A stretch of DNA of 64,000 bases, taken from positions 806,001 to 870,000 of the forward strand of contig NZ_BEWN01000001.1 in NCBI RefSeq assembly GCF_002723955.1, given 5' to 3'. Shown here piece after piece: positions 37,706 through 52,882 of this stretch. Both the position numbers and the translations under genes were made by a program. Every line of letters begins with the position of its first letter. The stretch's first letter is position 1. The stretch comes from Gluconobacter frateurii. Its GTDB lineage: Bacteria; Pseudomonadota; Alphaproteobacteria; Acetobacterales; Acetobacteraceae. The notes beneath the pieces were generated by a model. It was not told the DNA's origin, made no database searches, and saw only the letters and a program-made list of their open reading frames with translations.

Positions 37706-38233
37706 CTATTCTGTGCGGCGCGCGGCACGCAGGGAGGCAGTAAGGGCGGGATCTTCAAGAGACATCAGGCGGCTGGCCGCCGTCGTAGCAAAGAGGTGCA
37801 GAATAGTCCTGCGGCGGGCAGCAGCAAGCTTGTGCTCTGCTGGTTCCCGGATAACGGCGCATTCCGCCACAATACTGTGGAACAGACTGTCTGGAACCAT
37901 GCTGAGGCTGACTGTGATGATGCCAACGTCTTCCGGCAGAACATGCAGCGGAAAACCGTCATCCACAGCAAAAAATAGCCTGTCAGACCAACTTCGATAG
38001 TCGGACCATTTCTGGTCCGCCTGGAAATCACGGATGCCGGATTTGATCTCGATACAGGTCAGGCTGTGATCCGGCAGAAGCGCCATGACGTCTGCACGGC
38101 GCCCGGCTGAGGGCAGAGCGAATTCATTGATCGCGGCCCAGCCCATGGTGCGACAAAGCCCCAGAACAGCCCGCCTAATAGCGAGTTGTCTCTCTGGAAA
38201 ACCGGGTGTCATCTCGGAAAGAACCGAACTCAT
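37706..38233 (-). CDS. mmcB: MmcB family DNA repair protein
   Basis: A 175-residue protein typical of alphaproteobacteria. CIEIKSGIRDFQADQKWSDY and RLFFAVDDGFPLHVLPED are the family's hallmark and resemble a restriction-nuclease-like core (Asp in RADVMAL, then E-I-K). Caulobacter MmcB is an SOS-linked mutagenesis factor. The start is divergent from the beta-propeller gene at 38315. Confidence 0.85.
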   Translation of the reverse strand: MSSVLSEMTPGFPERQLAIRRAVLGLCRTMGWAAINEFALPSAGRRADVMALLPDHSLTCIEIKSGIRDFQADQKWSDYRSWSDRLFFAVDDGFPLHVLPEDVGIITVSLSMVPDSLFHSIVAECAVIREPAEHKLAAARRRTILHLFATTAASRLMSLEDPALTASLRAARRTE

Positions 38234-38314: not shown

Positions 38315-39205
38315 ATGCCGTTCCTGCGCACGGACCACTGGCGTTGTGCCATTATCCACGCTCCTCTGGCAGATCTGATCCGGGCAGGAAGTCTGAACGG
38401 ATTTGAAGTCACAACCCTGCCAGACATTGGAGACCACCGGTTTCTCGCAGACCCATTCGGATTATGGCGGGGCGGAAGGCTGCATGTCTTTGCTGAGGCT
38501 TATGATTACCGGAGCCCGAAAGGTGTCATCGAAGTGCTGGTCTATGACAGCACCGGACGGCTTATCGAGCGCGAGGAAGTGCTGCGTGAAGACTGGCACC
38601 TTTCGTACCCTTATGTGTTCGAGCATGAGGGGGAGACGTATCTGCTGCCAGAAGCCAGTGCGTCTGGCCGGTTGACCCTCTACCGGGCGACACAGTTTCC
38701 CCTTGGTTGGGAAAAGGTCGAGGCGTTCAATTTTCCGGAAGCTGCCATCGACGCGACGCCTTTTCACCATGCCGGGCGCTGGTGGATGTTCTGGACGCCT
38801 GCCGGTACGCGGGAAGAACGCCAGTCAACACTCTATCTCTCGGTGGCTGATGACCTTATGGGGCCGTGGACGTCTCTAGGCCTTTTCCTGAACGATCGCG
38901 CAGGGGCACGGCCGGGCGGCACACCCATCGTGGTCGATGGAGAAATCTTCCTCCCGACGCAGGACTGCCGCGGCACCTACGGTCGGGGTATTCGTCTGTT
39001 GAAAATCGAAGGACTGGAGCGCGGACTGCCGAAAGTCACGCCGGACGCGATTCTGGACGCGCCTGCCGTACTCCGTCGTCGTTTCCCGGACGGTTTTCAC
39101 ACGTTATCTGCGGCAGGGCAGGTGACGCTTGTAGATGTGAAGCGTGTGGGGTTTGGCCCCAGGCGAGACCTTATGAACGTGAAGCGTCGTCTCGGGCTGG
39201 GCTAA
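38315..39205 (+). CDS. Beta-propeller protein related to the N-terminal domain of glucosamine inositolphosphorylceramide transferase
   Basis: A 296-residue protein starting at ATG 38315, with AAGGAGAG 5 nt upstream; the longer frame to 38186 overlaps mmcB and is rejected. Repeated blades with Asp/Trp motifs (FLADPFGLWRGGRLHVFAEA, WHLSYPYVFEHEGETYLLPE, AAIDATPFHHAGRWWMFWTP) resemble a five-bladed GH43-like propeller. The same fold forms the N-terminal domain of plant GINT1, which glycosylates sphingolipid head groups. Whether this protein is a hydrolase, transferase partner or lectin is unknown. It converges with the GT4 gene, overlapping by 35 nt, at the edge of the sphingolipid locus. Confidence 0.72.
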   Translation: MPFLRTDHWRCAIIHAPLADLIRAGSLNGFEVTTLPDIGDHRFLADPFGLWRGGRLHVFAEAYDYRSPKGVIEVLVYDSTGRLIEREEVLREDWHLSYPYVFEHEGETYLLPEASASGRLTLYRATQFPLGWEKVEAFNFPEAAIDATPFHHAGRWWMFWTPAGTREERQSTLYLSVADDLMGPWTSLGLFLNDRAGARPGGTPIVVDGEIFLPTQDCRGTYGRGIRLLKIEGLERGLPKVTPDAILDAPAVLRRRFPDGFHTLSAAGQVTLVDVKRVGFGPRRDLMNVKRRLGLG

Positions 39206-40271
39206 AACCCGGTAGCCGATCCAGAACCGCATTGCCCTGCCGCAGGAAGGCGTCGGGGCCAAAGCGGTCCAGCACGCGCTTGCGGGACAGGGCCCCCATG
39301 GAGTGCAGCTTTTTCGGCTGCATGATGAGCTCTGCAATGGCGCTTGCCAGAACAGGAGCATTGTTGAAGGGCACAACCAAACCTGAGTGCCCATCATCCA
39401 TCGTATGGGGAATCTCGCCAGCAGGGGTGGCTATCACGGGTAATCCACAAGCCATGGCTTCATGGGCAGCAACGCACATGCCTTCCCAATGAGAGGGCTG
39501 AACGTACAGGTGCAAGGTCGGAAGAAAAGTGAATGGCTCTTCACAGTGACCCAGAAAATCAACAGGTAGCTTCTTGTCCAGAACGATCTTCTCAAGAGCG
39601 TCTCTTTCAGGACCATCGCCTGCCAGCACGACCCGATAAGGTGGCAGATCCGGATGGTCGCGCAGAAGATCCAGTGCTTCGAACAGCAGGTCGTATCCTT
39701 TGACCGCGTGGAGCCGACCAAGACTTCCGATCCGGACAACTTTTCCCTTTTTCCACGCCGGCGCTTTTGGGCTCGCAGGATCTGCCCGGAAAATGGGCCA
39801 GGTCATGACCTTGCTCCGCAGACCCAGACTCTTGCGTGAAAAGCTTTCGACTGTTGGGGAGTCTGCAACCCAGAGGGCGGCTTTCCGGCACAGAAGACGT
39901 AGCAGAATGCTGTTAGCCTTCTTCAGGCGGGCCGAGTGTTGCCAGTGAACTGCAGGGACGCCCAGCTTGTTGGCCGCACGCTGGCCCAGAAGGGTTGCGC
40001 GCGTCAGAGATGTCCAGATCAGATCGGGCTGGAAAGCATCCATTTCATCGCGAAGCCATCGCCATGCGGCCAGATGATCTTTCTTGCCGCCGGAGCGGAC
40101 GTGAACCTTGATTCCCTGCTTCTCCAGCACGGGGATGGCAAGACCGTCTCGCTTTTCAAGGCTGAACACCGTGACTTCACCGCCCCGACTTTGAAGAACA
40201 GAGATGATGTCAGGGATGGGAAGTTGTGCGCCCCCACATTCCAGAGAATTGATAACGTAGGCAATTTTCAT
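39171..40271 (-). CDS. GT4 family glycosyltransferase
   Basis: A 366-residue GT-B enzyme. The ATG at 40271 overlaps the preceding gene's stop (ATGA) and begins MKIAYVINSLECGGAQ, the typical GT4 start, so I reject the longer frame to 40562. The donor site motif EGMCVAAHEAMACGLPVIAT (E-x7-E) and GSLGRLHAVKGYDLLFEAL are intact. It is the last gene of a six-gene operon with a nucleotidyltransferase, lipid hydroxylase and LptF/LptG proteins, so the acceptor may be a glycolipid such as ceramide; this is inferred from context. Confidence 0.88.
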   Translation of the reverse strand: MKIAYVINSLECGGAQLPIPDIISVLQSRGGEVTVFSLEKRDGLAIPVLEKQGIKVHVRSGGKKDHLAAWRWLRDEMDAFQPDLIWTSLTRATLLGQRAANKLGVPAVHWQHSARLKKANSILLRLLCRKAALWVADSPTVESFSRKSLGLRSKVMTWPIFRADPASPKAPAWKKGKVVRIGSLGRLHAVKGYDLLFEALDLLRDHPDLPPYRVVLAGDGPERDALEKIVLDKKLPVDFLGHCEEPFTFLPTLHLYVQPSHWEGMCVAAHEAMACGLPVIATPAGEIPHTMDDGHSGLVVPFNNAPVLASAIAELIMQPKKLHSMGALSRKRVLDRFGPDAFLRQGNAVLDRLPGFSPARDDASRS

Positions 40272-41023
40272 GAGGATCGCTGTGCCAGAAGCTCTTCGGC
40301 CAGGGTAAGATCGGCTGGCTTGTCGACATCCACGGCGGCCTGACCGTCCGACAAGGGTATAAGACGGACGCGTGCGCCTGTCAGGGTTTCGATACGCTGA
40401 CAGAGTGCGTTGGAATCCAGCCGTCCCAGGAGGGCGCGAAGAAGGGTTCCAAAACCAAGCGTCCGCGCCATTTTCAGAGGGCGCTTGCGGTCTTTCTGCA
40501 AGCGTTTCCAGAGCTCCACGACAGCTTCGGCGCGTGGCGTTCCCATCCAGAAAAGATTGCACCCCGAAAAACTCATATCCGACAGTCGGATATAGGTACG
40601 CTTGGTGTTGGGAACATCCCGCTCGACAGTGGCTTTAAGTGCAACACCTACGGCCAGATCGCAGTCACGGGTTTTCCCGAGGAATTCAGTGATCCACTCG
40701 GGCCGTAGCAGTGCATGATCTGCCGTGGTGACAAGGCACGGGGTGCCGATGTGGGTTAGCGCCTCTGCAACACTCTCACTGGGGGAGGAGGCGGCTTTCA
40801 GGATCTCAGCCGTACCAGCAATGTCACGGATGCGGTCAGGTGCTTCAATGCTGATGGTAACAGGGCCGAGACCGGGCGTGACTGCAAGTGTTCTGAGAAC
40901 ACGCCCAAGCATGGGTTCTCCCCGAACGGGGAGAAGTGCCTTGTGAGACACTTTCCCCAGTTGGGCGAGGACATCCTGTTCACCATCGCGGGAACCGGCA
41001 AGAACCAGAACGGGGAGAGTCAC
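40268..41023 (-). CDS. MobA/GlmU-like nucleotidyltransferase family protein
   Basis: A 251-residue NTP-transferase-fold protein. PVLVLAGSRDGEQD followed by KVSHKALLPVRGEPMLGRVL is the nucleotide-binding start, with Lys and Pro in place, and LVTTADHALLRPEW supplies the metal-binding Asp. The C terminus has DGQAAVDVDKPADLTLAEEL, as in NDP-sugar or CDP-alcohol pyrophosphorylases. It probably activates a head group or sugar as an NDP derivative. It overlaps its neighbours by 4 nt on both sides. Confidence 0.83.
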   Translation of the reverse strand: MTLPVLVLAGSRDGEQDVLAQLGKVSHKALLPVRGEPMLGRVLRTLAVTPGLGPVTISIEAPDRIRDIAGTAEILKAASSPSESVAEALTHIGTPCLVTTADHALLRPEWITEFLGKTRDCDLAVGVALKATVERDVPNTKRTYIRLSDMSFSGCNLFWMGTPRAEAVVELWKRLQKDRKRPLKMARTLGFGTLLRALLGRLDSNALCQRIETLTGARVRLIPLSDGQAAVDVDKPADLTLAEELLAQRSS

Positions 41024-41817
41024 GCCGTGCGGCTACGGTCTGATGCAGGACGGGCGCCGTCTGGTCGATCTTTCGGGGGAGATCCCGTCAGATCCATGAC
41101 CCAAGGATAGCGCTTGGCTTCTTCGATGTCATAGCCGAGGTTGAAAACGTGCTGGCTGCGGGCGCGATCACGTGCTTCGCGATAAAAGCTGCCGAAAAGA
41201 CGGTCCGGCACGTAGTTCGTGATGCCGTAATTGCCGTCCTCGTCATGGAAATGATGCAGAACATGCAACTGCTTGATGTGGGCGACCCATTTCCAGCGCG
41301 GCTTGTACGCCAGATGCTGGATGCAGTGAAAGAACTCATAGATGCACGTCATCACCAGAGCTGTGGAAAGTGCGCAGAAAGAGCCGCTCCAGCCGCTTAT
41401 GAGATACCCGATCGGCATGGTGATGATCGCCATCGTCGGAACCGTGTTCAGGGGCGATCCGAACAGTACGTCCAGAAGATGCGGGTCCTGATGATGATCG
41501 AAATGGATGCGCTTCCACAGAGCCGCGGTCCAGTGATTCCGATACAGCCAGCGCCCGTGGAGGATGAAGCGATGGATCATGTACCAGGCCAGAGGATAAA
41601 CGGCGATCACAACCGGGATGGGGATCAGTGTGCCCCATAGGCTGTGGGAGAAGTGAAGGGCTCCAAAGGCAGCGGCGGCAATCAGCGCAAAATAGAGAAG
41701 GATCGTTGGGTATGTGAGGTAGGCAATCCACAGCTGGGGCAGAGACATCTTGCCCAGATCAAAGCTGCGCCCCGTCCGCAGGGACGACATATTATGCCAG
41801 GGTTTGGACTTGCTCAT
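41020..41817 (-). CDS. Fatty acid hydroxylase/sterol desaturase family membrane enzyme
   Basis: A 265-residue integral membrane diiron protein with the complete His-box set: HRFILH, HFDHHQDPH, HCIQH and LHVLHHFHDE. Two hydrophobic pairs precede the first box. Family members hydroxylate or desaturate lipids, including ceramide fatty acids. Acetic acid bacteria are known to make ceramides with 2-hydroxypalmitate, so a ceramide 2-hydroxylase role is a reasonable inference given serine palmitoyltransferase 6 kb away. Overlaps of 4 nt link it to lptG-like and nucleotidyltransferase genes. Confidence 0.87.
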   Translation of the reverse strand: MSKSKPWHNMSSLRTGRSFDLGKMSLPQLWIAYLTYPTILLYFALIAAAAFGALHFSHSLWGTLIPIPVVIAVYPLAWYMIHRFILHGRWLYRNHWTAALWKRIHFDHHQDPHLLDVLFGSPLNTVPTMAIITMPIGYLISGWSGSFCALSTALVMTCIYEFFHCIQHLAYKPRWKWVAHIKQLHVLHHFHDEDGNYGITNYVPDRLFGSFYREARDRARSQHVFNLGYDIEEAKRYPWVMDLTGSPPKDRPDGARPASDRSRTA

Positions 41818-42914
41818 TTTTCCTCCATCCGCAGGATCCAGGTCATCCCCAAGAAGGCGCCTAGCAGCGGGCCCGCACTGGTAGCCAGAGGCGCTCCAAG
41901 CGTTCCTGCATTTCCGAGTGCGGAAATCATTCCTTGCAGGATTACGAAACCCATACCGGCAGCCAGTACATAGACCGGAAGAGGATTTCGAAGTCCTGCC
42001 CGTGGAGGGATATAGATCACTGGCAGCGCCAATAGAAGCATTACTGCAATCTGAAATGGAAGAATGATGCCACTGAAGAGTGCCATGCGATATGTCGCGC
42101 GCGGCAGACTGGCTGGCGCGCCCTTGTGAAGAATAGCCCCGATCTGCGCTGGTGTAACGGCAGCGTTGTCTTCAGAGAGGGTCATGATCATCTTGGGGGT
42201 GGCCGGAATTTCGAAGCGGTTGTCACCTCCCGTTACCTTTACGAAAGCCCCATTATCTGTGAGCGTCAAATCCTGGGCGCCCGTCGGCTGCCAGACTTGC
42301 CCGTCATAAGATAGTGTTGTGGCGTGCTCCGTACCCGTCAGCAGGCCGCTGGCATCACGGTGGTAGATCGTCACGTCCCGAAGAAAAGACCCGCCGTGTG
42401 CGTACTGGCCAATCCGCACGAGTGTTGGTCCCGCACGGAACCATAGAATACGCTTTGCAGGTGTATCCGGCTTTGCGGCGTCGGGATCAGTTTTGTTCCA
42501 CCACGTTGCAAGTGCATTTTCGCAGGGAGGGATGACCCAGTACTGGACCGCCGTGGCGGTAAAGCCGACAATCAGGATTGCCGGGAGAAAACGTTGGTAA
42601 AGACCTGCAGTCGAAAGGCCGGATGCACGAAGTGCAGCCATTTCCGACGAAAGCGTCATCTGCATGAGCAGGAACAGTGCTCCAATCATGAACGCCAAGG
42701 GTATGATTTCAACGCTCAGGGCCGGCAGATGCAGAAACGCAAACGTCAGAATGCCCCGAAAGCCCAGATTCCGGTTCAGGATGGGCGTCGTTTTTTCAAG
42801 AAGCGCCAGAATTTCGAGCAGAGAAACAAGAACCGCACCGCATAGCATGAAGCGGCCGAGCAGGGCGCGGTTCAGATACCGGTACAGAACGTGTCGTGGT
42901 GCGTGTGCAGTCAT
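41814..42914 (-). CDS. LptG-like YjgP/YjgQ family permease
   Basis: A 366-residue protein with the LptF/LptG architecture: three N-terminal membrane helices (YLNRALLGRFMLCGAVLVSL, ALSVEIIPLAFMIGALFLLM), a periplasmic beta-jellyroll (about 125-265) and three C-terminal helices. The conserved SSEMAALRASGLS coupling segment follows helix 2. In the Lpt system this pair extracts LPS from the inner membrane with LptB. The pair here sits in an operon with lipid-modifying genes rather than lpt genes, so it may be the only Lpt pair or a paralogue for another lipid. Confidence 0.85.
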   Translation of the reverse strand: MTAHAPRHVLYRYLNRALLGRFMLCGAVLVSLLEILALLEKTTPILNRNLGFRGILTFAFLHLPALSVEIIPLAFMIGALFLLMQMTLSSEMAALRASGLSTAGLYQRFLPAILIVGFTATAVQYWVIPPCENALATWWNKTDPDAAKPDTPAKRILWFRAGPTLVRIGQYAHGGSFLRDVTIYHRDASGLLTGTEHATTLSYDGQVWQPTGAQDLTLTDNGAFVKVTGGDNRFEIPATPKMIMTLSEDNAAVTPAQIGAILHKGAPASLPRATYRMALFSGIILPFQIAVMLLLALPVIYIPPRAGLRNPLPVYVLAAGMGFVILQGMISALGNAGTLGAPLATSAGPLLGAFLGMTWILRMEEK

Positions 42915-44062
42915 GAGGGGCGAACCAGCTTGCGACGTCTCCAGGATCCGCGGGAGCGGCGAAGAAGCGTGGCGGGACAGGCGATACAGAAAATGGCCAG
43001 CGGAACCCAGATGGCCAACCAGATGGGGAGGCGCCCTGTAGCGGCCAGACTATGACCGAACATCAGTGTCTGGTCGAAGCCCACCAGAATGGCGGACACG
43101 GCGATCAGGCCCCACACGGATCTGCGCCGTCTTGAACCGATAGCCAATGCCACGGCCAAAGGGGGAATGAACGGGATGGCCAGCGCGTGCGCCACACGGA
43201 AATCCATTTCCGCACGGAGCGTACGGTATTCAATCCCGGGAACGCCGTATCGCAGGTCATGAGCCAGTTCAAAAAGGGTTAGTTCCCGCTCGTCCGCTCC
43301 TCTGGAGCGGAAAGAATTTTCCTGGGTCGGTCGTTCAATGATGCGCACCACATGGGAAAAATGGGTCACTGTTGGCTTGAAATTTGCGCGATTGGGGAAT
43401 GGGTCATCAACAATTTCCCCGTTCCACAGATCAAGCTGGGTACTACGCAATTTGTTGGAAATGGTGAGTTGACCCGTGCGTGCCGTGATGATGTGGGCCA
43501 CGCCATTCTTGTTCACTTCCCGAATGAAAATCCGCTTCATCCGAGTGCCCGCGTGGCTCACATTGTCCGCCGTCATCACGGCCGTGCTGGATGTCGATGC
43601 AAACATGCCGGCCTGAAGATGGGGCGCCCATCCCGTATGGGCGGCGAAATAAAAGCCAGCCCGGTAATCATATCGGGCCACTGGCTGGATATATCCGTAA
43701 AGCAGGACACTCGCGGCCCCAAGCAGGAGGCCGACGAACATGAACGGACGACTGATACGCAGAAGGGAAACCCGACCGGCTTCAAGCGCATCAATCTCGT
43801 TGTTGTCGCTCATTCCGCGAATGGTGAGGAACACGGAGATGCAAAGCGCCGCCGGGACTGCAATTCCGAAGTAATGTGGAAGAAGATCTGTCAGCAACTT
43901 GATACACGTTGCCAGAGAACTCCCTGCTGATGCCAGATAATCGAACAAAGCCAGAAGCCGTTCCAGAAGCAATGCGATCAGCATTGCGACCAGAGCGATT
44001 ACGAACGGCGGTATCATCTGCGTGAGAAGATACCGGTCCAGTATGGTTGCGCGCTGCTTCAT
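42911..44062 (-). CDS. LptF-like YjgP/YjgQ family permease
   Basis: A 383-residue partner of the LptG-like protein. It has helices at residues about 13-33, 55-80 and 100-125 and three more near the C terminus, with a periplasmic domain between. The coupling segment IRGMSDNNEIDALEAGRVS is typical of LptF. The gene overlaps the upstream metallophosphoesterase and downstream LptG-like gene by 4 nt each. Whether the cargo is LPS or another lipid cannot be read from sequence; the operon content points towards sphingolipid. Confidence 0.85.
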   Translation of the reverse strand: MKQRATILDRYLLTQMIPPFVIALVAMLIALLLERLLALFDYLASAGSSLATCIKLLTDLLPHYFGIAVPAALCISVFLTIRGMSDNNEIDALEAGRVSLLRISRPFMFVGLLLGAASVLLYGYIQPVARYDYRAGFYFAAHTGWAPHLQAGMFASTSSTAVMTADNVSHAGTRMKRIFIREVNKNGVAHIITARTGQLTISNKLRSTQLDLWNGEIVDDPFPNRANFKPTVTHFSHVVRIIERPTQENSFRSRGADERELTLFELAHDLRYGVPGIEYRTLRAEMDFRVAHALAIPFIPPLAVALAIGSRRRRSVWGLIAVSAILVGFDQTLMFGHSLAATGRLPIWLAIWVPLAIFCIACPATLLRRSRGSWRRRKLVRPS

Positions 44063-44967
44063 GCCTGGTTTTTCCGTGGCCGCACCCAGGACGCTTTTTC
44101 CGTAATCCTACCATCGAATCTGTGGCGAGCCATCTGAATGACCCAGTCGTTGTTCTGTGAATGAATGGAGAGATGATTCCAGCAGGCCTGCCGGTGTTCC
44201 CGTTTGTCCATGAGGGACGCCGAGGCTACGCCCAGCAGGGGTATGTCCGTGCCAGGGATATGGGTCAGGGTCGCGTCATGAGAATGGCCATGCAGAACAA
44301 TTTCTGCGCCGGTGCGCTCAAGCACCCGGGCAAAAGCCCGGTAGTCGTGCAGGGACTTGCGCCAAGTCACCAGACCGCGTCTGGGCGGATGATGAATCAT
44401 GACAACACGGCACAGCCCAGCCTTTCCAAGTTGGTTCAATAGGGTTTCAAGCCGTGCAAGTTGTTTGCGCCCGACGCGACCATAGGCCATGAAAGGCGGT
44501 GTCGGCACGCCTGAATTCACACCGATAACTGCCACGCCATCATGAATCCGTGCATACGGATAAGACGCGGCAGACCACGTCTTCCACTGAAGCAGGCCTT
44601 TTTCGGCTGGCTGACGAATCATGCAGTCATGATTGCCAGGAATAACCATAGCGGTAGCCGGAAGTTGTTTCAGCCAGTTCGCAGCAAGCGCAAATTCATC
44701 CGGGGTGCCGAAATTCGTCAGATCACCACTGACCAGAATGGCATCCACATTATTTCTGGCGATGTCCTCTACGATGGCCGCACAGGTTGCAGCCAGATGC
44801 ACATGACGGCGGTGCTTTTTCCAGGACAGAAGGCTCAGTGCACGCTTGTTGATGGCGTCCCGCCAGTGCACCGGCGGTGGCGGAAGGTGGGGATCTGACA
44901 AGTGGGCCAAGGTGACGGCATGCGTCTCCCGCGGAGTGCGTGTTTCTGCGGGGCGTGTGTGGGGCAT
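44059..44967 (-). CDS. Calcineurin-like metallophosphoesterase
   Basis: A 302-residue phosphoesterase with all five metal motifs: LAHLSDPHLP, ILVSGDLTNFG, VIPGNHDC, VMIHHPP and VLHGHSHDAT. There is no signal peptide, so it is likely cytoplasmic. The subfamily resembles LpxH/CpdA-type enzymes that cut phosphodiesters or pyrophosphates, possibly a lipid head-group intermediate here. It is the first gene of the six-gene operon and is divergent from the lipid kinase gene, with about 125 nt between. Confidence 0.87.
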   Translation of the reverse strand: MPHTRPAETRTPRETHAVTLAHLSDPHLPPPPVHWRDAINKRALSLLSWKKHRRHVHLAATCAAIVEDIARNNVDAILVSGDLTNFGTPDEFALAANWLKQLPATAMVIPGNHDCMIRQPAEKGLLQWKTWSAASYPYARIHDGVAVIGVNSGVPTPPFMAYGRVGRKQLARLETLLNQLGKAGLCRVVMIHHPPRRGLVTWRKSLHDYRAFARVLERTGAEIVLHGHSHDATLTHIPGTDIPLLGVASASLMDKREHRQACWNHLSIHSQNNDWVIQMARHRFDGRITEKASWVRPRKNQA

Positions 44968-45092
44968 TTGAGAAACGTGGCCTTAGTCAGTCTTTCCACC
45001 AGAAGGAGACACCCATATTCTGGTGGAACCATCATAGCCGTGCTAGACCCGCCCGCATAGCTCCGAACATAACACGAAGAACTCCCCCCATA

Positions 45093-46043
45093 GTGCGATT
45101 TGCTCTTATTCATAATGCCCGTAGCCGCAAGAACAGGCGTAGTGGTTCCGTTTTTGCTGTTGAGGCCAAAGCGCTTCTGGGTGAAAACTTCGTTCCATCA
45201 GATAGTCGGGAAGGTATGACGGAGCACGTGCGCCATCTTTGCAAAAGAGATGTGCGGACGATCGTGATTGATGGTGGAGACGGCACAGTCAGCACAGCGT
45301 TGACTGCCATTGCCCGTGTCTATCCTGCCGACCGGCTGCCGGATATTGCTGTCCTGGCCTCAGGGAATACCAATCTGATCGCCAATGATGTCGGGTTCGG
45401 GCTACGCGGGATGGAGGCAATCCGTCGCCTTCAGCGAGGGGCGGCGATGCGTTCCAGCATCCGGACACCAATCCGGCTGTCATGGCCGGAGACAGACCGT
45501 AGTCCCGTTCTTGGGCTTTTTGGCGGCTGCACCGGATATGCGCGGGCTGTCCGGATTGCGCATTCCCCGACTGTGGTGCGCTTTGCGCCGCATGATCTGG
45601 CTGTTGGCTTTACGCTACTCAGCACTGTTATCAGTCTCATGTTTCGAAAAAGCCGGGAAAGCTGGCTCTCTGGCGAGGCTCTGAGGGTTGAAACCTCCGG
45701 GCATGCGTATGACGGAAACAGCTTCATGTTTCTGACGACGGGATTGTCCAAGCTCTCCCGTGGGATCTGGCCTTTCTGGGATGCGGAGCCGAATGTTGAA
45801 GGACTCCGCTACCTCGATGTCGGGGCTCATCCAGAAAATCTCTCACGCGCGACGGCTGCGTTGCTGTGTGGCCGTGCGCCACGCTGGCTGCGTCGTCATC
45901 CGGATTACGTCAGCGGCCGCACCGATGACATGATTCTGACGACGAAAAGCGATTTCGTTCTGGACGGCGAGGTTTTCACGCCGTCCGAACATGAGCAGAT
46001 GCGTCTTGAGCGTGGACCGGCATTCCGTTTTCTCCATGCCTGA
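45093..46043 (+). CDS. Diacylglycerol kinase-family lipid kinase, candidate ceramide kinase
   Basis: A lipid kinase of about 316 residues. The nucleotide loop VIDGGDGTVSTAL (G-G-D-G-T), the following LASGNTNLIANDVG and the C-terminal FVLDGEVF match the DAGK/sphingosine kinase/ceramide kinase catalytic fold. I place the start at GTG 45093 (VRFALIHNARSRKN) because the longer frame to 44940 runs into the divergent gene; the ribosome binding site is weak. The next gene begins inside it with an 8-nt overlap. Near serine palmitoyltransferase genes, a ceramide kinase as described in Caulobacter is the likeliest role. Confidence 0.82.
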   Translation: MRFALIHNARSRKNRRSGSVFAVEAKALLGENFVPSDSREGMTEHVRHLCKRDVRTIVIDGGDGTVSTALTAIARVYPADRLPDIAVLASGNTNLIANDVGFGLRGMEAIRRLQRGAAMRSSIRTPIRLSWPETDRSPVLGLFGGCTGYARAVRIAHSPTVVRFAPHDLAVGFTLLSTVISLMFRKSRESWLSGEALRVETSGHAYDGNSFMFLTTGLSKLSRGIWPFWDAEPNVEGLRYLDVGAHPENLSRATAALLCGRAPRWLRRHPDYVSGRTDDMILTTKSDFVLDGEVFTPSEHEQMRLERGPAFRFLHA

Positions 46044-46974
46044 CGCTCTTGAAAAATTCCTGATCGGGGAACTGACAACTTCGGTTCATCCTGATGTCGT
46101 GGCCTTCGCGGATGCTTTGGCTTCTGCCTGCCCTCAGACCCCTCTTGGGGTCTTGTTTTATGGGTCTGTCCTGCGGACGGAAGACTTCGAAGGTATTCTC
46201 GATTTCTATATTGTAACGGAAGACGCTGGAGGCTTTACAGGAGGGCTGGTTTCACGAACCGGCAATCTTCTGTTGCCGCCTAATGTGCGTTATGCGGAAT
46301 TCAAAACCGGACAGCGAACTCTGCGGGCCAAAATCGCGGTCCTGTCACGCCAGCAGTTTGAAGAGCGCACAACGCTTGGCACGCTGGACACAACCCTGTG
46401 GGCCAGATTCTGCCAGCCAGTCAGGCTCATCTGGGTGAGGGACGAAAAAGCCGCAGACACGCTTCTCGATCTGATTGCACGGTGTGTAACCACGGCGTCC
46501 TGCTGGGCAGCTTTGTTGGGAGCGCCGCGTATGACGGCGATTGAATACTGGCAGTCCCTCTTTTCACGGACCTACGCTTCTGAATTGCGAGTTGAGAAGA
46601 AGGGCCGAGGGCAAAGCCTGATCTCCGGTCAGGAGAACCGATTTGCAGCCATGTTGCCACTGGGTTGGGCGCGGGCTCACCTCCGTTATTCGGCTACGGG
46701 AAATGCGCTGGAACCCGTTCTGTCTCTCGGGGCCCGAAAGCGTGCTGCACGGCGTTGGAAGTTGGTCGCTCAGACCGGCAAGTCTCGGAATGTCGTTCGC
46801 TTGATAAAGGCGGCTTTCACCTTCGAGAACGGAGCGTCCTATCTTGCTTGGAAAATCCAGCGGCATACGGGGCTGGACCTGAATCTTTCCGAAGCGGAAC
46901 AGAAACATCCGCTTCTGTTTCTGCCAGTTCTTCTGCGGCGTATGCAGCGCTTGCGCAAGCAGGCGCAGAGCTAA
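46036..46974 (+). CDS. Tam41-like nucleotidyltransferase (candidate lipid-phosphate cytidylyltransferase)
   Basis: A 312-residue protein of a family usually left unnamed. I see similarity to mitochondrial Tam41 (CDP-DAG synthase): LFYGSVLR for the Y-G-S-G-V nucleotidyltransferase loop, GILDFYIVTED for the metal-binding L-D-F-x-x-x-V-D-D, KIAVLSRQQFE for Y-G-V-I-S, LWARFCQPVRLIW for the A-G-R-L-Q-K-P-V segment and FSRTYASELR for L-S-Y-S-G-D-F-R. The first loop is shortened and diverged. ATG 46036 lies inside the lipid kinase stop region (8-nt overlap), so the two are translationally coupled. I infer that it may turn the kinase product plus CTP into a CDP-lipid. Confidence 0.65.
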   Translation: MPDALEKFLIGELTTSVHPDVVAFADALASACPQTPLGVLFYGSVLRTEDFEGILDFYIVTEDAGGFTGGLVSRTGNLLLPPNVRYAEFKTGQRTLRAKIAVLSRQQFEERTTLGTLDTTLWARFCQPVRLIWVRDEKAADTLLDLIARCVTTASCWAALLGAPRMTAIEYWQSLFSRTYASELRVEKKGRGQSLISGQENRFAAMLPLGWARAHLRYSATGNALEPVLSLGARKRAARRWKLVAQTGKSRNVVRLIKAAFTFENGASYLAWKIQRHTGLDLNLSEAEQKHPLLFLPVLLRRMQRLRKQAQS

Positions 46975-46979
46975 GACAT

Positions 46980-47009
46980 AAAAAAGGACCTTCGAGAAGG
47001 TCCTTTTTT
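46980..47009. terminator. Bidirectional terminator between convergent operons
   Basis: A perfect 13-bp stem AAAAAAGGACCTT (46980-46992) pairs with 46997-47009 over a 4-nt loop, giving a T-run on both strands. It ends the lipid kinase operon and the serine palmitoyltransferase operon. Confidence 0.97.
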
Positions 47010-47031
47010 ATGTTTGAAGATCCAGTTTTCT

Positions 47032-48225
47032 TCAGGCTTGGAAGTGTTCCGCTACTGCTTTGAAAACTGCTGTCGCCTTGTCAATTTCTTCTGCACTGTG
47101 AGCAGCCATGACGGAGCATCGCAGGAGCGGGCGGTTGTCAGGCGTCGCCGGTGGAAGAGACAGGTTCACATACACGCCGTTTTCCAGCAGAGCATTCCAG
47201 AAGCCAACAGCCTGCGGAATATTCTCAAGCGTAACAGCGACGACTGGAGAAACATGCTCACCGGTCTGGAGTCCGGCAGCCTTTAGGCCTGCGTGAAGAC
47301 GGGCGGCATTTTCCTGCAACTTCACGCGCAGTTCCGGGCGCGCTTCCATGTCATCCAGAGCCGCAAGGGTCGCAGCGATAATTTCCGGGGGTAGGGACGC
47401 TGTGAACATGTAAGGGCGTGAGCATAGGCGCATCAGATCCACGCCGTCATGGTCCGTGACGCAGTAGCCACCAACTGTGCCAAGAGACTTGGAGAAGGTA
47501 CCGACAATGAAGTCGATGCCATCTTCACAGCCCTGCATCTCTGCAACGCCGCGGCCATGTTCGCCCAGTACGCCGAAGGAATGCGCTTCGTCTGCCATCA
47601 GGTAAGCGCCGTGACGCGTCTTGATGTCCACGAACTTGTCCAGAGGGGCGACATTCCCCGTCATGGAGTAGATGCCTTCAGCGATGATCAGCTTTGCGCC
47701 AGGATGATCTTTCAGGCGTGCGAGACGCTTTTCCAGATCGACCGGATCATTGTGGCGGAAACGAATGACCTGCGCGCCGGACAGCTTGGCGCCATCATAG
47801 ATGCTGGCATGACTGTCTGCATCGAGAAGCAGGACATCGTCCTTGTTCACGAGTGCAGAGATCGTGCCCAGGTTGGCTTGATATCCGGTGGAGAACACCA
47901 TGCAGTGCTTGCGGCCAAAGAAGGACGCAAGACGCTTTTCAAGGCGCTGATGCAAACCGAACGTGCCGTTGGCAATCCGGGAGCCGGTTGTGCCGACGCC
48001 CATGGTGCGGGCTGTTTCAATAGCGGCTTCAGCCGCACGCGAAGACTGGCTCAGACCAAGATAGTTGTTGGTGCCGAACAGAAGCGTCTCTCGGCCTTCG
48101 ATCAGCCCAACCGTCGCCGAAAGGGGGCGTTCGATCACAACCTCAAACGGGTTGCGCGGCGACACTGCGGTAAGCCCCTCGTAAGCTGTACGAAGCGCCG
48201 CGTGCTTGGCGAAGATATCGATCAC
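47032..48225 (-). CDS. spt: Serine palmitoyltransferase (alpha-oxoamine synthase family)
   Basis: A 397-residue PLP enzyme that condenses serine with an acyl thioester to 3-ketosphinganine, the first step of sphingolipid synthesis. The PLP Lys is in FIVGTFSKSLGTVGGY; LMADEAHSFGVLGEHGRG and FGTNNYLGLSQSSRA are conserved. GTG 48225 overlaps the ACP stop (GTGA), so I prefer it to ATG 48255, which would overlap by 34 nt. KBL- or HemA-type activity cannot be excluded by sequence alone, but the acyl-ACP synthetase and ACP upstream strongly favour serine palmitoyltransferase. It is the last gene of the operon. Confidence 0.9.
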   Translation of the reverse strand: MIDIFAKHAALRTAYEGLTAVSPRNPFEVVIERPLSATVGLIEGRETLLFGTNNYLGLSQSSRAAEAAIETARTMGVGTTGSRIANGTFGLHQRLEKRLASFFGRKHCMVFSTGYQANLGTISALVNKDDVLLLDADSHASIYDGAKLSGAQVIRFRHNDPVDLEKRLARLKDHPGAKLIIAEGIYSMTGNVAPLDKFVDIKTRHGAYLMADEAHSFGVLGEHGRGVAEMQGCEDGIDFIVGTFSKSLGTVGGYCVTDHDGVDLMRLCSRPYMFTASLPPEIIAATLAALDDMEARPELRVKLQENAARLHAGLKAAGLQTGEHVSPVVAVTLENIPQAVGFWNALLENGVYVNLSLPPATPDNRPLLRCSVMAAHSAEEIDKATAVFKAVAEHFQA

Positions 48226-48476
48226 GCCTGGCTGGCCTTGAGGGTGTGTAGGCATGCAGCCAGATCGTTGATGGTCCGGATGTCGGCCAGCTTGTCCAGC
48301 GGGACCGAGACATCCAGTTCGTCTTCAATTTCCATAACGAAATTCATGACTGCCAGGCTATCGAAAGCCAGATCTTCGACGATCTTGCTGTTGCCATTGA
48401 TGTCCCGCGGAACTTTCGGGTTGGCGAGCAGTTTTTCGATGATCATGCCGGAGATGCCGGCGACGCTGTCAGTCAT
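48222..48476 (-). CDS. Specialised acyl carrier protein for sphingolipid synthesis
   Basis: An 84-residue ACP, clearly distinct from AcpP at 33196. The phosphopantetheine Ser is in EDLAFDSLAVMNFVMEIEDEL. It lies between an acyl-ACP synthetase and serine palmitoyltransferase and is coupled to the latter by a GTGA overlap. This is the arrangement of the dedicated ACP in Caulobacter ceramide synthesis, so it probably delivers the acyl chain to Spt. Confidence 0.9.
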   Translation of the reverse strand: MTDSVAGISGMIIEKLLANPKVPRDINGNSKIVEDLAFDSLAVMNFVMEIEDELDVSVPLDKLADIRTINDLAACLHTLKASQA

Positions 48477-48536
48477 GAAATTGAACTCTCGGTCTCTGTA
48501 TGCAGTTTTGGGGACGCTTTATGCGTCAAAGCACGT

Positions 48537-48572
48537 CAGTCCGCTACCCCTTCTGTGCAAGGGGGCGGACTG
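48537..48572. promoter_or_regulatory. Intercistronic hairpin between acyl-ACP synthetase and ACP genes
   Basis: CAGTCCG (48537-48543) pairs with CGGACTG (48566-48572), with a second stem between ACCCCTT and AAGGGG inside. There is no T-run on either side. It may stabilise or partly attenuate the transcript and change the ratio of ACP/Spt to the upstream genes. Confidence 0.45.
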
Positions 48573-48579
48573 ATGTTGT

Positions 48580-50388
48580 TCAGGCTGCTGAACTTGCAGC
48601 CTGTTCCAGGTCGAACTGACCCGAGAGCAGCATTGCCTTGGCGCGGGCACGCGTCAGCTTTCCAGAAGACGTCTGCGGAAGCGTACGAGGTGGAACCAGA
48701 ACGACCCGGACATCCACGCCATGTTGACGACGGAAGAGGCTGGTGACTTCATCACGCAGGCTGTTGCGACTTTCTTCTTCGGTGGCGCGACACTGCACCA
48801 GAGCCACGATGCTCTCGCCGGTTTCCGTTTCAACTGAAAAAACAGCGACGTCGCGAGAGCGCAAAGTGCTTATTTCACTTTCGGCGGACCACTCAAGATC
48901 CTGAGGCCAGATATTGCGGCCATTGATGATGATCAGGTCCTTGGCACGGCCTGTGACCACGATCTGACCATTCAGGTGATAGCCAAGATCGCCTGTATTC
49001 AGCCAGCCATCAGCATCCAGAACAGCTTCTGTTTCTTCTGGACGACGGAAATAGCCGCACATCAGGCTGGGGCCCCGAACGAAAACGCAGCCGACATGAC
49101 GATCGGGCTGGACCTTACCTGACGGGTCGCGCACCTCAATTTCATGTTCAGGCAGAGGCTCGCCGCACAGCACGAAGGTCCGAAGGGCATGAGACGGATC
49201 GTTGGAGGGCTGGGCGAGTCCATCCTTCTCGAGCGTCCGCAGGTCGATTGTATCTGTCTGGATCCCAGTGTTCAGCGGAGCGAAGCTGATGGCGAGCGTA
49301 GCTTCTGCCATGCCATAACTGGCAACAAAAGCGCGCGCATCGAACCCATTGGAGGCAAAGCGTTCAGCAAAGCCTTCAAGGATATGGTGGCGGATCATGT
49401 CACCGCCGATGCCAGCAATGCGCCAACACGAAAGATCCAGTTCGGCCTGACCGCTGCGGCGTGAGCAGAGCTCGTATCCGAACGACGGGCTGTAGGCGAT
49501 CGTGCCACGGTTCCGCGAGATCAGGTCCAGCCAGACATGCGGGCGCCGGGCAAATTCACGCGTCGGCAGCAGATCGACCGTCAATTGGCATGTGAGTGGC
49601 GTCAGGAAAAACCCTACCAGTCCCATGTCATGATAAAGCGGGAGCCAGGACACACAGCGATCATCACGCGGGTCTTCTGCCGGATGAACCTTCAGGCCGT
49701 CCCGGGCAATGGCACGGGCATTGGCCATGCCGGCAGCCTGCGTCACGGAGACGCCCATCGGGAAGCGGGTGCTGCCTGATGAAAACTGCAGATAGGACAG
49801 GTCTTCAGGCCGGATGTCCGGCAAATCGACACTGGCCTCGGCATGGCGATGCAGGTCCGCAGGGGAGCCGCCGAAGATCAGGTCCAGACCGTCCACAATA
49901 TCAGAAGTCCAGCTTCCGATCACATCCGGCACGACAACTGCGCGCGCGGCCGCTACCTGAATCATGCCACGAAGCGTGGACACATATCCTTCCTTGCCAC
50001 CAAAGGCGACAGGAAGCGGAAGGGGGGCAGGAACCAGACCGGCATACTGACAGCCGAAGAAGATGCGGGCGAAATCGCCATCGCTTTCCGCAACAATCGC
50101 GACCCGGTCCCCAGGAGCCAGTCCAAGGCCCAGAAGGCGTCGGGCCATCGAGATCGCCTGTTCGCGCAGGACGCGGTAGGGCAGAGCTTCCAGAAGCTGT
50201 CCACGTCCGGAGTAGATGTTGAATCCACTCTCGCCCTGGGCTGCGTAATCAAGCGCTGCGGCGAAGCTCGGGAAATCTCCGTACCGTCTGACCAGACCGG
50301 AGCGGCTTGGCGTCGGAGCGGGATGGGCGATGGGGTTCTGGTTGTCCTCGGTCAAACCTAGACTAGCTCCATTAGGGTCGCCGGACAT
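48580..50388 (-). CDS. Fatty acyl-AMP ligase / acyl-ACP synthetase
   Basis: A 602-residue adenylate-forming enzyme. Core motifs are LQFSSGSTRFPMGVSVT (A3, with Met where Lys is usual), VASYGMAEATLAISF (A5), DGWLNTGDLGYHLNGQIVVTGRAKDLIIINGRNIWPQDLEW (A7-A8, described in parts) and TSSGKLTRARAK (A10 Lys). The FAAL-like organisation and adjacent ACP suggest it activates a fatty acid and transfers it to that ACP for Spt. The start overlaps the upstream stop as TGATG. A 103-nt gap with a hairpin separates it from the ACP gene. Confidence 0.87.
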   Translation of the reverse strand: MSGDPNGASLGLTEDNQNPIAHPAPTPSRSGLVRRYGDFPSFAAALDYAAQGESGFNIYSGRGQLLEALPYRVLREQAISMARRLLGLGLAPGDRVAIVAESDGDFARIFFGCQYAGLVPAPLPLPVAFGGKEGYVSTLRGMIQVAAARAVVVPDVIGSWTSDIVDGLDLIFGGSPADLHRHAEASVDLPDIRPEDLSYLQFSSGSTRFPMGVSVTQAAGMANARAIARDGLKVHPAEDPRDDRCVSWLPLYHDMGLVGFFLTPLTCQLTVDLLPTREFARRPHVWLDLISRNRGTIAYSPSFGYELCSRRSGQAELDLSCWRIAGIGGDMIRHHILEGFAERFASNGFDARAFVASYGMAEATLAISFAPLNTGIQTDTIDLRTLEKDGLAQPSNDPSHALRTFVLCGEPLPEHEIEVRDPSGKVQPDRHVGCVFVRGPSLMCGYFRRPEETEAVLDADGWLNTGDLGYHLNGQIVVTGRAKDLIIINGRNIWPQDLEWSAESEISTLRSRDVAVFSVETETGESIVALVQCRATEEESRNSLRDEVTSLFRRQHGVDVRVVLVPPRTLPQTSSGKLTRARAKAMLLSGQFDLEQAASSAA

Positions 50389-51518
50389 CAGGCGGCTTTC
50401 TGTAAAAAATCGACAATGGCATCCGCGGCAGCGGGGGCCGTAGGCTGTTCGCCTAGAGTTTCGAATGTCTCTAGTACATATTGGCGCTGAATCTCAAGGA
50501 AACGTGAGTGTGTCTCAAACGCCTTAACAATTTCGTCAGCTGGATGGGCGATATTATCCGTAACAGGCCCAAGCGTCCATGACTGATAATTCGGGTTGTT
50601 CTGCCAGTCTGCTTCATGAGCATTCAGAAACAGGCAGGGCCGGGGTTTTATCATGAATTCTGCAACCTGACTGCTAACGTCCCCGAGATAGAGATCTGCA
50701 CCCATGGTATAGGTCATATCGATACTGCGTTGACTTCCAGGGTCAACGATAAGGTGCGGAACACTTTCATAATCACGTTTGAGGGCTTCTCCCTCATCAC
50801 GATTATTGTCAAAGAGACGAAAGTGCGGCGCGAAGATCACATTGTACTGGTCTTGCCGGGCAAAGAAGTCCAGCAGGTCGCGGCCCATAGCCTTCCAGGA
50901 AGAAAATTTCTGCACAAAGTGTGGATTGTACAGAACGGTCGGACGATTGTTGCTGAAGAGTGGCTGTCTGCGGGCATGCATTCGCCGAACCAGATCAAAC
51001 TTTGCATATGTTCCGCGATGGTAGAAGCCCGGGCGGATAATACCGTTCTTCAACATGCGGTCTTCGACCTTCCGGCCCGGTACAAGCAGGTAATCAAATT
51101 TCCGCAGATGCTGTGCAAAGCCGATGGCGCGATCACCTGCGCCATGACCCGTCCAGATCATGCGGGGTGTACGCACGCCCATGTTGCGAAGCTGTAGAGA
51201 GGTTGCTTCAGGGACGATAATTGCTTCGAAGCCTCGGAAATACCGGCGTGAAAAGAAAAGGCCCAGGAGTCTGTCCAGTACACGGAGGCCCTGAGCTTCG
51301 ATGCGGTGGCGCAGGTTTTCCGAAATGGGAAGAAGATCAAACTGAACGCGTGATTCCGGATAGAGCGTTGCCAGTGACCGCGCCAGTTCGAGGTGGCTGC
51401 TAGTCAGGCAAGCGACATGTACGGAAATTTCAGGATGCCGTGCGGACATTTCGAGCGCAATCGGCAGAGCGTGCAGCGTCTGATGGCGCTGTGCAATCAG
51501 AGGAAAGACGACTTTCAT
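50388..51518 (-). CDS. CDP-glycerol glycerophosphotransferase-like (TagB/TagF fold) protein
   Basis: A 376-residue protein starting at ATG 51518 (MKVVFPLIAQRHQTLHALPI); the longer frame to 51776 lies inside the flippase gene and is rejected. IWTGHGAGDRAIGFAQHLRKFDYLLVPG, NRPTVLYNPHF, VIFAPHFRLFDN and TYTMGADLYLGDVSSQVAEFMIKPRPCLFLN (described in parts) match the GT-B fold of CDP-glycerol:glycerophosphotransferases, including G-H-G and D-x-S-S. It could add a glycerophosphate-type group to a lipid. It sits in the serine palmitoyltransferase operon, coupled as TGATG to the acyl-ACP synthetase gene. Confidence 0.78.
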   Translation of the reverse strand: MKVVFPLIAQRHQTLHALPIALEMSARHPEISVHVACLTSSHLELARSLATLYPESRVQFDLLPISENLRHRIEAQGLRVLDRLLGLFFSRRYFRGFEAIIVPEATSLQLRNMGVRTPRMIWTGHGAGDRAIGFAQHLRKFDYLLVPGRKVEDRMLKNGIIRPGFYHRGTYAKFDLVRRMHARRQPLFSNNRPTVLYNPHFVQKFSSWKAMGRDLLDFFARQDQYNVIFAPHFRLFDNNRDEGEALKRDYESVPHLIVDPGSQRSIDMTYTMGADLYLGDVSSQVAEFMIKPRPCLFLNAHEADWQNNPNYQSWTLGPVTDNIAHPADEIVKAFETHSRFLEIQRQYVLETFETLGEQPTAPAAADAIVDFLQKAA

Positions 51519-51520
51519 AG

Positions 51521-52882
51521 TCAGTTTGCCGTCCGCAATGTAGGGGTTCGAAGGACAAGGAAAAGCTGCAGACCAATCAGGAGTGTGACGCCCAGAAGAG
51601 TCATTGGGCCAACGCCGTCCAGTCCGTAGCGACGAACAACCAGCACGAGCCCGGGAAAGAACACGAGGCAGTCCAAAAGGCGGACTGACGTTGCTGCCCC
51701 GGAGCGGTTGGTTGTGAAGAGAAGAGGCTCCAGCGGTAGGCCCCAGACCGCCACCACCTCCGCGGCGAGCAGCCACAGGATGACGGGAAGCGTCTGCACG
51801 GCTCCGCTGTTACCAATATAGAGCTGAAGAAGGGGTTTTCCAGCCAGGAGGGTTGCAATCAGCAGACAGGTGCCAATGCAGCCCGCTGCTAGTGCCACCT
51901 GTAAGGTAAGACGATACAGGCGTGTCATGGCATGATCACGCCACAGGCGGGCCATTTCCGGATAGACTGTTGTCTGGATAATGGACGCTGGTTTGGCGAT
52001 GCCGGACGCAATCTGGCTGGCAATGCGGCAATAACCCGCACTGGCTGGGCCCACATAAGCGCCCACGACCAAAGTGCCGATATGGTTGAAGGTCAGAGCC
52101 AGAGCTGAATTGAGGTTGGTAGCAAGAGCGAAGCGGCGGATACCGGGATGGGTTTTAAAGAACGTTCCGCTGGAAAGATCCGGGAGAAGGCCCCACAGCT
52201 CCCTGGGAAGGCCCCGGATCAGGTTTCGTCGCATCAGTTCTCGCAAGGCCATGATGCTCAGCGTTGCCCAGGCAGCAACTTCAGCCAGAATCCAGACGGT
52301 TGCAAGCGCCATGACAGATGGGCCGGTGAAGGCAAGGGCTGCCGTACCGATCACACGAACAATCGTAGCCACCACGCCCTGAATGGAAATCAGATCATAG
52401 CGGTTGAAAACGCTGAGGAGCCCCGTTGGCGTTGCGGAGGCCATGAAGAGGATCGAGACGCAGAAGACGACGCCAATCACATGGATTTCCGGTGGCCATC
52501 CCAGGAGCGTCATGCCGGACAGGCTGATGGCAATACCGCCTGCGCACCCTAGTAGGCCTCCAATGCCGTCCAGAAGGAAGCTGAACGCAACAATACGCTG
52601 AAATCCGGAACAATCCCCGCTGGTCAGTGGGTGCAGCCCATATTTCAAGACGGTCTGCCAGGATTGAAAATCCACAAGGTCACTCATTGTCCGGGCGAAC
52701 GCGTACATCATGGCTATTAACCCGAACCCGTGACTGCCAAGCAGATGGGTGGCCATCCAGATGTGAACCAGGCTGAGTGGAGCGTTAATGACGCGACCGC
52801 CCAGAAGGAGGCTCACATTTTTCATGACACGCCGGCCGCCGACCGCTTTCTGGGGCTGTAAAGACGGTGTTGCGTCCGACAT
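51521..52882 (-). CDS. Polysaccharide/lipid flippase (Wzx/MOP-like)
   Basis: A 453-residue integral membrane protein with about 12 predicted helices, starting with RRVMKNVSLLLGGRVINAPLSLVHIWMATHLLGSHGFGL, the usual Wzx/RfbX-type beginning. The internal YVGPASAGYCRIASQIASGIAKPASI is also typical. Family members flip lipid-linked saccharides. It is the first gene of the serine palmitoyltransferase operon, 2 nt before the TagF-like gene, and may flip a sphingolipid or a glycan intermediate. Confidence 0.85.
   Translation of the reverse strand: MSDATPSLQPQKAVGGRRVMKNVSLLLGGRVINAPLSLVHIWMATHLLGSHGFGLIAMMYAFARTMSDLVDFQSWQTVLKYGLHPLTSGDCSGFQRIVAFSFLLDGIGGLLGCAGGIAISLSGMTLLGWPPEIHVIGVVFCVSILFMASATPTGLLSVFNRYDLISIQGVVATIVRVIGTAALAFTGPSVMALATVWILAEVAAWATLSIMALRELMRRNLIRGLPRELWGLLPDLSSGTFFKTHPGIRRFALATNLNSALALTFNHIGTLVVGAYVGPASAGYCRIASQIASGIAKPASIIQTTVYPEMARLWRDHAMTRLYRLTLQVALAAGCIGTCLLIATLLAGKPLLQLYIGNSGAVQTLPVILWLLAAEVVAVWGLPLEPLLFTTNRSGAATSVRLLDCLVFFPGLVLVVRRYGLDGVGPMTLLGVTLLIGLQLFLVLRTPTLRTAN

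Follow-up and report, generated by a model that had tools for sequence, protein, structure and literature searches.

The 64,000-nucleotide stretch of the Gluconobacter frateurii genome analysed here (the window, G000:C1:806001-870000 of a 3.3-Mb genome) carries, at positions 38315–52882, a cluster of 14 genes predicted to make and export a phosphosphingolipid (Table 1). All 14 reading frames are intact, each open between its start codon and one stop codon. On the minus strand, five junctions from the GT4 glycosyltransferase gene through the metallophosphoesterase gene are 4-base overlaps, and the kinase and Tam41-like (hereafter Tam-like) genes overlap by 8 bases, given the start codons chosen (GTG at 45093 and ATG at 46036, respectively). 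Profile searches agree with the serine palmitoyltransferase (SPT), acyl carrier protein (ACP), acyl-ACP synthetase, hydroxylase, kinase, LptF/LptG permeases, nucleotidyltransferase (NTP transferase), metallophosphoesterase, GT4 and flippase that an earlier note on this DNA had claimed. Its Tam41-like and TagF-like proteins have no Pfam family match of their own and are borne out by some members of their alignments and by predicted folds. The first gene of the cluster, left unnamed by that note, encodes a GINT1_N protein, as identified by its profile match.

Table 1. Genes of the cluster, with their positions in the window and the matches that identify them.
Feature	Position	Strand	Support
GINT1_N-domain protein (PF24793), 296 aa; candidate head-group decoration protein	38315..39205	+	profile 119.9 bits, cut-off 27
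GT4 glycosyltransferase	39171..40271	-	PF00534 110 bits
MobA-like nucleotidyltransferase (NTP transferase)	40268..41023	-	PF12804 43 bits; PDB 2dpw E 1e-24
Fatty acid hydroxylase (His-box)	41020..41817	-	PF04116 64 bits, cut-off 31
LptG2-like permease	41814..42914	-	PF03739 217 bits, cut-off 28
LptF2-like permease	42911..44062	-	PF03739 174 bits, cut-off 28
Metallophosphoesterase	44059..44967	-	PF00149 64 bits
GGDGT lipid kinase, predicted ceramide kinase	45093..46043	+	PF00781 (DAGK_cat) 41 bits
Tam41-like cytidylyltransferase, predicted CDP-ceramide synthase	46036..46974	+	predicted fold
Serine palmitoyltransferase (SPT)	47032..48255	-	NF047599 613 bits, cut-off 500; PDB 2x8u E 1e-116
Dedicated acyl carrier protein (AcpR)	48222..48476	-	PF00550 43 bits
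Acyl-ACP synthetase / fatty acyl-AMP ligase (AasR)	48580..50388	-	NF006624 908 bits, cut-off 600
TagF-like CDP-alcohol phosphotransferase (GT-B)	50388..51518	-	predicted fold
Oligosaccharide/lipid flippase family protein	51521..52882	-	PF01943 (Polysacc_synt) 45 bits

Conservation and relation to the Caulobacter locus

The Tam-like gene is present in 31 of 120 Acetobacteraceae genomes and in 42 of the 385 genomes of a class sample. Thirty related loci, other than the window and all picked for holding this gene, were scored by tblastn matches of at least 45 bits, several of the stretches being cut by contig ends. The kinase is found in all 30, the hydroxylase in 29, the NTP transferase, LptF2, LptG2 and metallophosphoesterase in 28 each, SPT in 26, ACP in 25 and the acyl-ACP synthetase in 24, and the neighbourhood conservation across Acetobacteraceae that the earlier note proposed to check thus covers a core seen in 24–30 of the 30 loci. 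TagF (14 loci), GT4 (13), GINT1_N (13) and the flippase (10) form a variable layer at the locus. In G054, from the window's own genus, SPT is on a separate contig (L034, L281) and the part from the kinase to GINT1_N remains together. Wider relatives of the Tam-like gene, taken as the best 80 of 327, include genes from metagenome-assembled genomes (MAGs) titled Gammaproteobacteria, Deltaproteobacteria/Desulfobacterota and Nitrospiraceae (L133, L150, L183 and others), so that the gene reaches beyond Alphaproteobacteria; Caulobacter is missing from these 80, which is uninformative.

This kind of locus is already known from Caulobacter crescentus, where CC_1168-CC_1152 is the locus for the lipids CPG (ceramide phosphoglycerate) and CPG2; its clade-specific remodelling is new. 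In the report on Caulobacter (PMC11324152), the ceramide genes are CC_1165 (AasR), CC_1163 (AcpR), CC_1162 (SPT), CC_1164 (CerR) and CC_1154 (CerS). There CC_1160 is the ceramide kinase, CC_1161, with a domain like that of cytidine diphosphate (CDP)-diacylglycerol synthase, is needed for CPG, CC_1159, CC_1158, CC_1153 and CC_1152 serve CPG2, and CC_1156/CC_1155 are LptF2/LptG2. CpgD makes CDP-glycerate (PMC12275187), the proposed substrate of CpgA (PMC13228409), and is CC_1152 as mapped here from ccna_01210; together with CpgA it provides for the second phosphoglycerate in Caulobacter. CpgB and CpgD have already been characterised, and the homologous Caulobacter locus described (PMC11324152). 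Both loci have AasR, AcpR, SPT, the metallophosphoesterase, LptF2/LptG2, a CC_1153-like NTP transferase and the flippase, together with CerS, which here lies elsewhere in the genome; the ceramide kinase and CpgC have predicted counterparts here, which agree with them in family, fold and gene order. The Gluconobacter locus differs in having no clear CpgA, CpgD or CerR ortholog, in the addition of GINT1_N, GT4 and TagF, and in carrying its hydroxylase within the operon, whereas that reported for Caulobacter (CC_0202, DesA family) is found elsewhere.

The same core recurs in Dongia-type MAGs and in Roseomonas mucosa, with CerR, CerS and CpgA nearby and in an order that matches the one published for Caulobacter (PMC11324152); this links the window genes, through their position, to the Caulobacter roles. 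The R. mucosa locus lies on a plasmid (NZ_CP025062, L206) of a human skin isolate and shares the core, including the hydroxylase, Tam-like, kinase, LptF/G and NTP transferase genes. Unlike the window, it has retained CerR along with a CDP-alcohol phosphotransferase resembling CpgA and a cytidylyltransferase resembling CpgD. Its full CPG2-type set (kinase, Tam-like, CpgA-like, CpgD-like, CerS, CerR and LptF/G), in which the Tam-like gene is annotated 'hypothetical', predicts CPG2-like lipids there. The Roseomonas region also includes a putative ELM1/GtrOC1-like glycosyltransferase gene (L206:20500-21702), and one family member, G102, shows 87–96% identity to R. mucosa proteins, from which the family is taken to be Acetobacteraceae. 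For acetic acid bacteria, GOX2056-2058 are given as spt, acpR and aasR in PMC9386255, and the matches listed in a search of their sphingolipid literature include no other account of the locus.

Predicted ceramide synthesis, hydroxylation and reduction

SPT, the dedicated ACP and the acyl-ACP synthetase, the set that opens the Caulobacter-type CPG2 pathway, are all present at the locus. The window SPT scores below cut-off on the related alpha-type model NF047603 (444 bits, cut-off 670), and its PDB search returned SPT structures. A search of whole genomes at E 1e-60 found SPT in 30 of the 31 Tam-positive genomes. The count for Tam-negative genomes covers 36 of the 89, 6 picked for GINT1_N and 30 more, 20 of these picked for CerS or short-chain dehydrogenase (SDR) matches.

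The His-box enzyme is predicted to be the 2-hydroxylase of the N-acyl chain. Its best PDB match, SCS7, is weak (E 0.2); the gene adjoins cerS at the Dongia-type loci and also in 3 of the 6 ceramide clusters of Tam-negative genomes, which supports a link between hydroxylase and ceramide.

The earlier note placed CerS and CerR outside the window, as we also find, and proposed to look for both in the rest of the genome. CerS is there, at G000:C4:276484-277650, with 36% identity to the Dongia-type protein and 32% to E. coli YghO; CerR, an epimerase-type reductase, has no clear ortholog in this genome, the best match reaching 44 bits, with 34% identity across roughly 200 aa. CerS homologs occur in all 33 genomes examined and, across the 120 family genomes, in 31/31 Tam-positive and 18/89 Tam-negative ones. 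Strong CerR matches (218–570 bits) are confined among the 33 to G063, G102, G071, G293 and G155; the others give at most 93 bits and no clear ortholog. In all 28 CerR-less genomes examined an SDR gene (272 aa in G. frateurii) directly adjoins cerS in divergent orientation, and in the stretch of G071, which has CerR, no SDR was seen. The genes glk and thiL also flank the cerS-SDR pair in most CerR-less genomes, and the pair is kept at L257, L266, L277 and L279, where both flanks are absent. It sits within the sphingolipid locus of G056 (L061) and is part of cerS-SDR-SPT-like clusters in G010 and G105. At E 1e-40 the SDR is found in 32 of the 120 genomes, namely 28 Tam-positive ones, G010, G105 and, more weakly, G072 and G031.

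The SDR contains the motifs TGASSGIG and YSGSK. Likened by motifs alone, it shares with Bacteroides BT_0972 and eukaryotic KDSR (TSC10) its class, YxxxK and a glycine-rich nucleotide motif, KDSR of yeast, man and Bacteroides being of the short-chain dehydrogenase class (PMC9278070). It is likely that this SDR replaces CerR as the reductase of the ceramide pathway. The prediction fills the missing reduction step across the whole clade and is a ground for testing GOX1849, which published work chose by homology and lists as the Gluconobacter epi (reductase) gene (PMC9386255).

Other arrangements were also seen. The cerS-SDR pair adjoins a divergent SPT-like enzyme, 34–35% identical to the window SPT, at L298 and L299 (G010, G105) and at L061 (G056); this is perhaps another alpha-oxoamine synthase, or serves a different sphingoid base. 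Six SPT-positive, Tam-negative Acetobacteraceae have compact ceramide clusters (L292–L297), and weak CDP-alcohol phosphotransferase and cytidylyltransferase matches (44–60 bits) at L293 and L294 suggest yet another head group.

Predicted head-group and export genes

The GDGT motif is invariant across 14 aligned kinase sequences, and the kinase accompanies the Tam-like gene at 18 of 20 loci outside the family as well as at 30/30 within it. A Tam41_Mmp37 Pfam match appears in only 1 of 42 Tam-like alignment members (E 9e-7), a member other than the window protein, and no Tam41 came up when the Tam-like alignments were used for PDB sequence-profile searches. The predicted model has the Tam41 fold, at 13% identity and a Foldseek TM-score of only 0.45–0.53 by query length. 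This fold and the overlap of the kinase and Tam-like genes support a conversion of ceramide-1-phosphate to CDP-ceramide; they also make CDP-ceramide synthesis directly and simply assayable. Unlike the CDP-diacylglycerol synthase Tam41, the Tam-like protein belongs to a sphingolipid operon. For Caulobacter, a figure legend calls the mechanism by which CpgC takes ceramide-1-phosphate to CPG unidentified (PMC13228409), and an NDP-activated ceramide has already been proposed (PMC11324152); a literature search on 'CDP-ceramide' returned no match.

CpgA, the CDP-alcohol phosphotransferase, gave no match at E 0.001 in the G. frateurii genome with a Dongia-type query. Nor did CpgD, the CDP-glycerate synthase, for which the query was an R. 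mucosa candidate called CpgD by family and place. Among the 33 genomes, CpgA is strong in G063, G102, G293 and G155, the remaining searched genomes giving none or short generic matches below 30 bits; CpgD is strong (226–440 bits) in the same four and at most 57 bits in others. Clear orthologs of both are absent from 29 of the 31 Tam-positive Acetobacteraceae, G. frateurii included, and CpgA is present at 11 of 20 Tam-like loci from outside the family. The remodelling suggests a head group other than that of Caulobacter, and from the absence of CpgA and CpgD a different lipid is predicted for the outer membrane of bacteria that are easy to grow. The earlier note had called the lipid undescribed: its kind is described in Caulobacter (PMC11324152), but given that CpgA and CpgD are lacking, an undescribed lipid as such is still plausible.

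Judged by domain and position, the NTP transferase is probably the counterpart of Caulobacter CC_1153, and the metallophosphoesterase is that of CC_1158. The NTP transferase was also considered as CpgD and rejected: its match in both the Dongia-type and the R. mucosa loci is the gene next to cerS, and the CpgD-like gene of R. mucosa is a different one. LptF2 scores 162 bits on the equivalog model for lipopolysaccharide LptF, under its cut-off of 230, and so looks like a divergent paralog; with LptG2 it would probably form an Lpt-type lipid export route.

PF04464 (Glyphos_transf, E 1e-7) is found in 15 of 22 TagF-like alignment members, the window protein not among them. TagF ranks first in both predicted-fold listings, with UDP-GlcNAc 2-epimerases nearly as close and 13–14% identity; in contrast to the TagF and TarL CDP-alcohol polymerases, the window protein stands in a sphingolipid context. 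GINT1_N, GT4, TagF and the flippase lie elsewhere in many genomes, together in several. Because these genes vary at the locus, the decoration suggested in the earlier note stands on weaker ground than the core does.

The GINT1_N protein has no glycosyltransferase match. GH43 scores 22 bits, under its cut-off, and PDB matches to GH43-type proteins are weak (best E 0.03); the protein is perhaps a GH43-like beta-propeller. The domain is named after the plant inositolphosphoceramide glycosyltransferase, and plant GINT1 has a C-terminal GT64 catalytic domain. PF24793 occurs in 27/31 Tam-positive genomes (not in G060, G063, G102 or G116), 10/89 Tam-negative genomes and none of the six that are SPT-positive and Tam-negative; the two family members having CpgA and CpgD are without it. 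Fisher tests, which ignore ancestry, give p 1e-14 for 27/31 against 10/89 and p 9e-5 for 27/31 against 0/6. A quickly built SPT tree with 47 rows, from which G063 and G056 are absent, shows two changes each for cpgA and cerR and three for GINT1_N, so that independent events are few. Counted from start to stop, the longest frames span 294–393 aa in Tam-positive genomes; in the two Tam-negative ones measured they reach 514 and 542 aa. Stop-to-stop frames run from 354 (G099, also 475) to 629 in the 10 Tam-negative genomes and are mostly 296–393 in Tam-positive ones, with 462 in G001 and 620 in G056. The contrast in 'stand-alone' length is thus partial, a start near the match giving about 300 aa in both groups. 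As proof of sphingolipid glycosylation GINT1_N was rejected, the domain being found in Tam-negative genomes also. Together with a nearby inositol-monophosphatase-family gene (36906-37694) it suggests an inositol head group, but the companions of that gene are MmcB and Ysc84, which seem to be ordinary neighbours.

Proposed pathway and alternatives

We conclude that the locus probably encodes the form which the phosphosphingolipid pathway of Caulobacter takes in acetic acid bacteria, proceeding via CDP-ceramide and LptF2/LptG2 export, with its reactions, step order, head group and export deduced from the genes. AasR would load a fatty acid onto AcpR, and SPT would join acyl-AcpR with serine to give 3-ketosphinganine. 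The SDR, in place of CerR, would reduce the ketone and CerS would then N-acylate the product, both being encoded outside the window; alternatively acylation may come ahead of reduction, as proposed for Caulobacter. The FA_hydroxylase would 2-hydroxylate the N-acyl chain, the GGDGT kinase would phosphorylate ceramide to ceramide-1-phosphate, and the Tam-like protein with CTP would convert this to CDP-ceramide, donor for a phosphodiester head group. Transfer to an alcohol, which the NTP transferase and metallophosphoesterase may serve, would follow. These two, joined in some genomes by TagF, GT4 and GINT1_N, would build or trim the head group, and LptF2/LptG2 would then export the finished lipid. 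Most likely, as far as the genes tell, the product is an N-(2-hydroxyacyl) ceramide bearing a phosphodiester head group acquired through CDP-ceramide. The earlier note was right in what it observed and largely right in its interpretation, and its view of the locus as one unit for sphingolipid synthesis, hydroxylation, phosphorylation and probable Lpt-type export is supported at the level of gene content.

Several observations weigh against this conclusion. Tam-positive G056 has no close SPT at E 1e-60, and close SPT (53–61%) occurs in 6 of the 36 Tam-negative genomes tested, 5 further ones giving 36–39% matches. In the small genomes G029 and G116 (L054, L055) the locus has no metallophosphoesterase, LptF2 or LptG2, while retaining the kinase, Tam-like, hydroxylase and NTP transferase genes. 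CerS also extends beyond this branch, 18 Tam-negative Acetobacteraceae having a match, and the SDR-cerS adjacency is partly general synteny, because glk and thiL are often kept there as well. Counterparts of CC_1153 and CC_1158 are kept here without CpgA and CpgD. The best structural match leaves residues past 278 of the Tam-like model uncovered, and a predicted Tam41 fold is no proof of ceramide specificity. The kinase and Tam-like protein are predicted to be the CpgB and CpgC counterparts from gene order, domains and the papers.

The kinase and Tam-like protein could instead act on diacylglycerol and phosphatidic acid, giving extra CDP-diacylglycerol, with the sphingolipid a plain hydroxyceramide or glycosylceramide. 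Hydroxyceramides are indeed lipids of acetic acid bacteria, and Tam41 itself is, by its PDB titles, a CDP-diacylglycerol synthase. CpgB also phosphorylates diacylglycerol in vitro (PMC10331486), a further point against our conclusion. Yet the Tam-like gene co-occurs with SPT in 30/31 genomes and adjoins the kinase at 30/30 loci, and Caulobacter mutants in CC_1161 or CC_1159/CC_1160 are without CPG and have raised ceramide, CC_1160 restoring CPG (PMC11324152); we regard this explanation as improbable. Production of Caulobacter's own CPG, and of CPG2 through a CpgA/CpgD substitute such as the TagF-like protein, so that only the enzymes differ, is a less remote prospect but still unlikely. It accords with the presence at every locus of counterparts of the two genes reported to be required for CPG (PMC11324152), with the NTP transferase and metallophosphoesterase at 28/30, with the predicted TagF-like fold, that of CDP-glycerol polymerases, and with the likening of CPG2 addition to TagF in the CpgD paper (PMC12275187). 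Against it, TagF is at only 14/30 loci, though sometimes elsewhere in the genome, and CpgA and CpgD are missing together, which is what loss of the CDP-glycerate step would lead one to expect.

The cluster may hold two neighbouring systems, a core for sphingolipids that spans aas to NTP transferase and, with no relation to it, a surface-glycan module of GINT1_N, GT4, TagF and flippase, which would account for the variability of these four genes, often found elsewhere, and for GINT1_N in 10/89 Tam-negative genomes. The distribution of GINT1_N, in 27/31 Tam-positive genomes against 0/6 SPT-positive Tam-negative ones, argues the other way, though shared ancestry could explain it, and we consider two systems a serious possibility that falls somewhat short of an even chance. 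A stronger version of the pathway proposed above, rather unlikely as a whole, would have the CDP-glycerate branch replaced, CDP-ceramide made by the Tam-like protein being decorated by GINT1_N, GT4 and TagF to give phosphoceramide glycolipids, with the ketone reduced by the CerR-unrelated SDR. If true, the synthesis of bacterial phosphoceramide glycolipids and that of plant glycosyl-inositol-phosphoceramides have a domain in common.

Around the cluster, the flanking Ysc84, inositol-monophosphatase-family and MmcB genes (window 35940-38233) recur in 16, 18 and 10 of the stretches of the 30 relatives, respectively. Beyond the flippase (window 53395-58996) lie two overlapping GT4 glycosyltransferase genes and a gene whose 880-aa product narrowly misses the cut-off for a TonB plug match.

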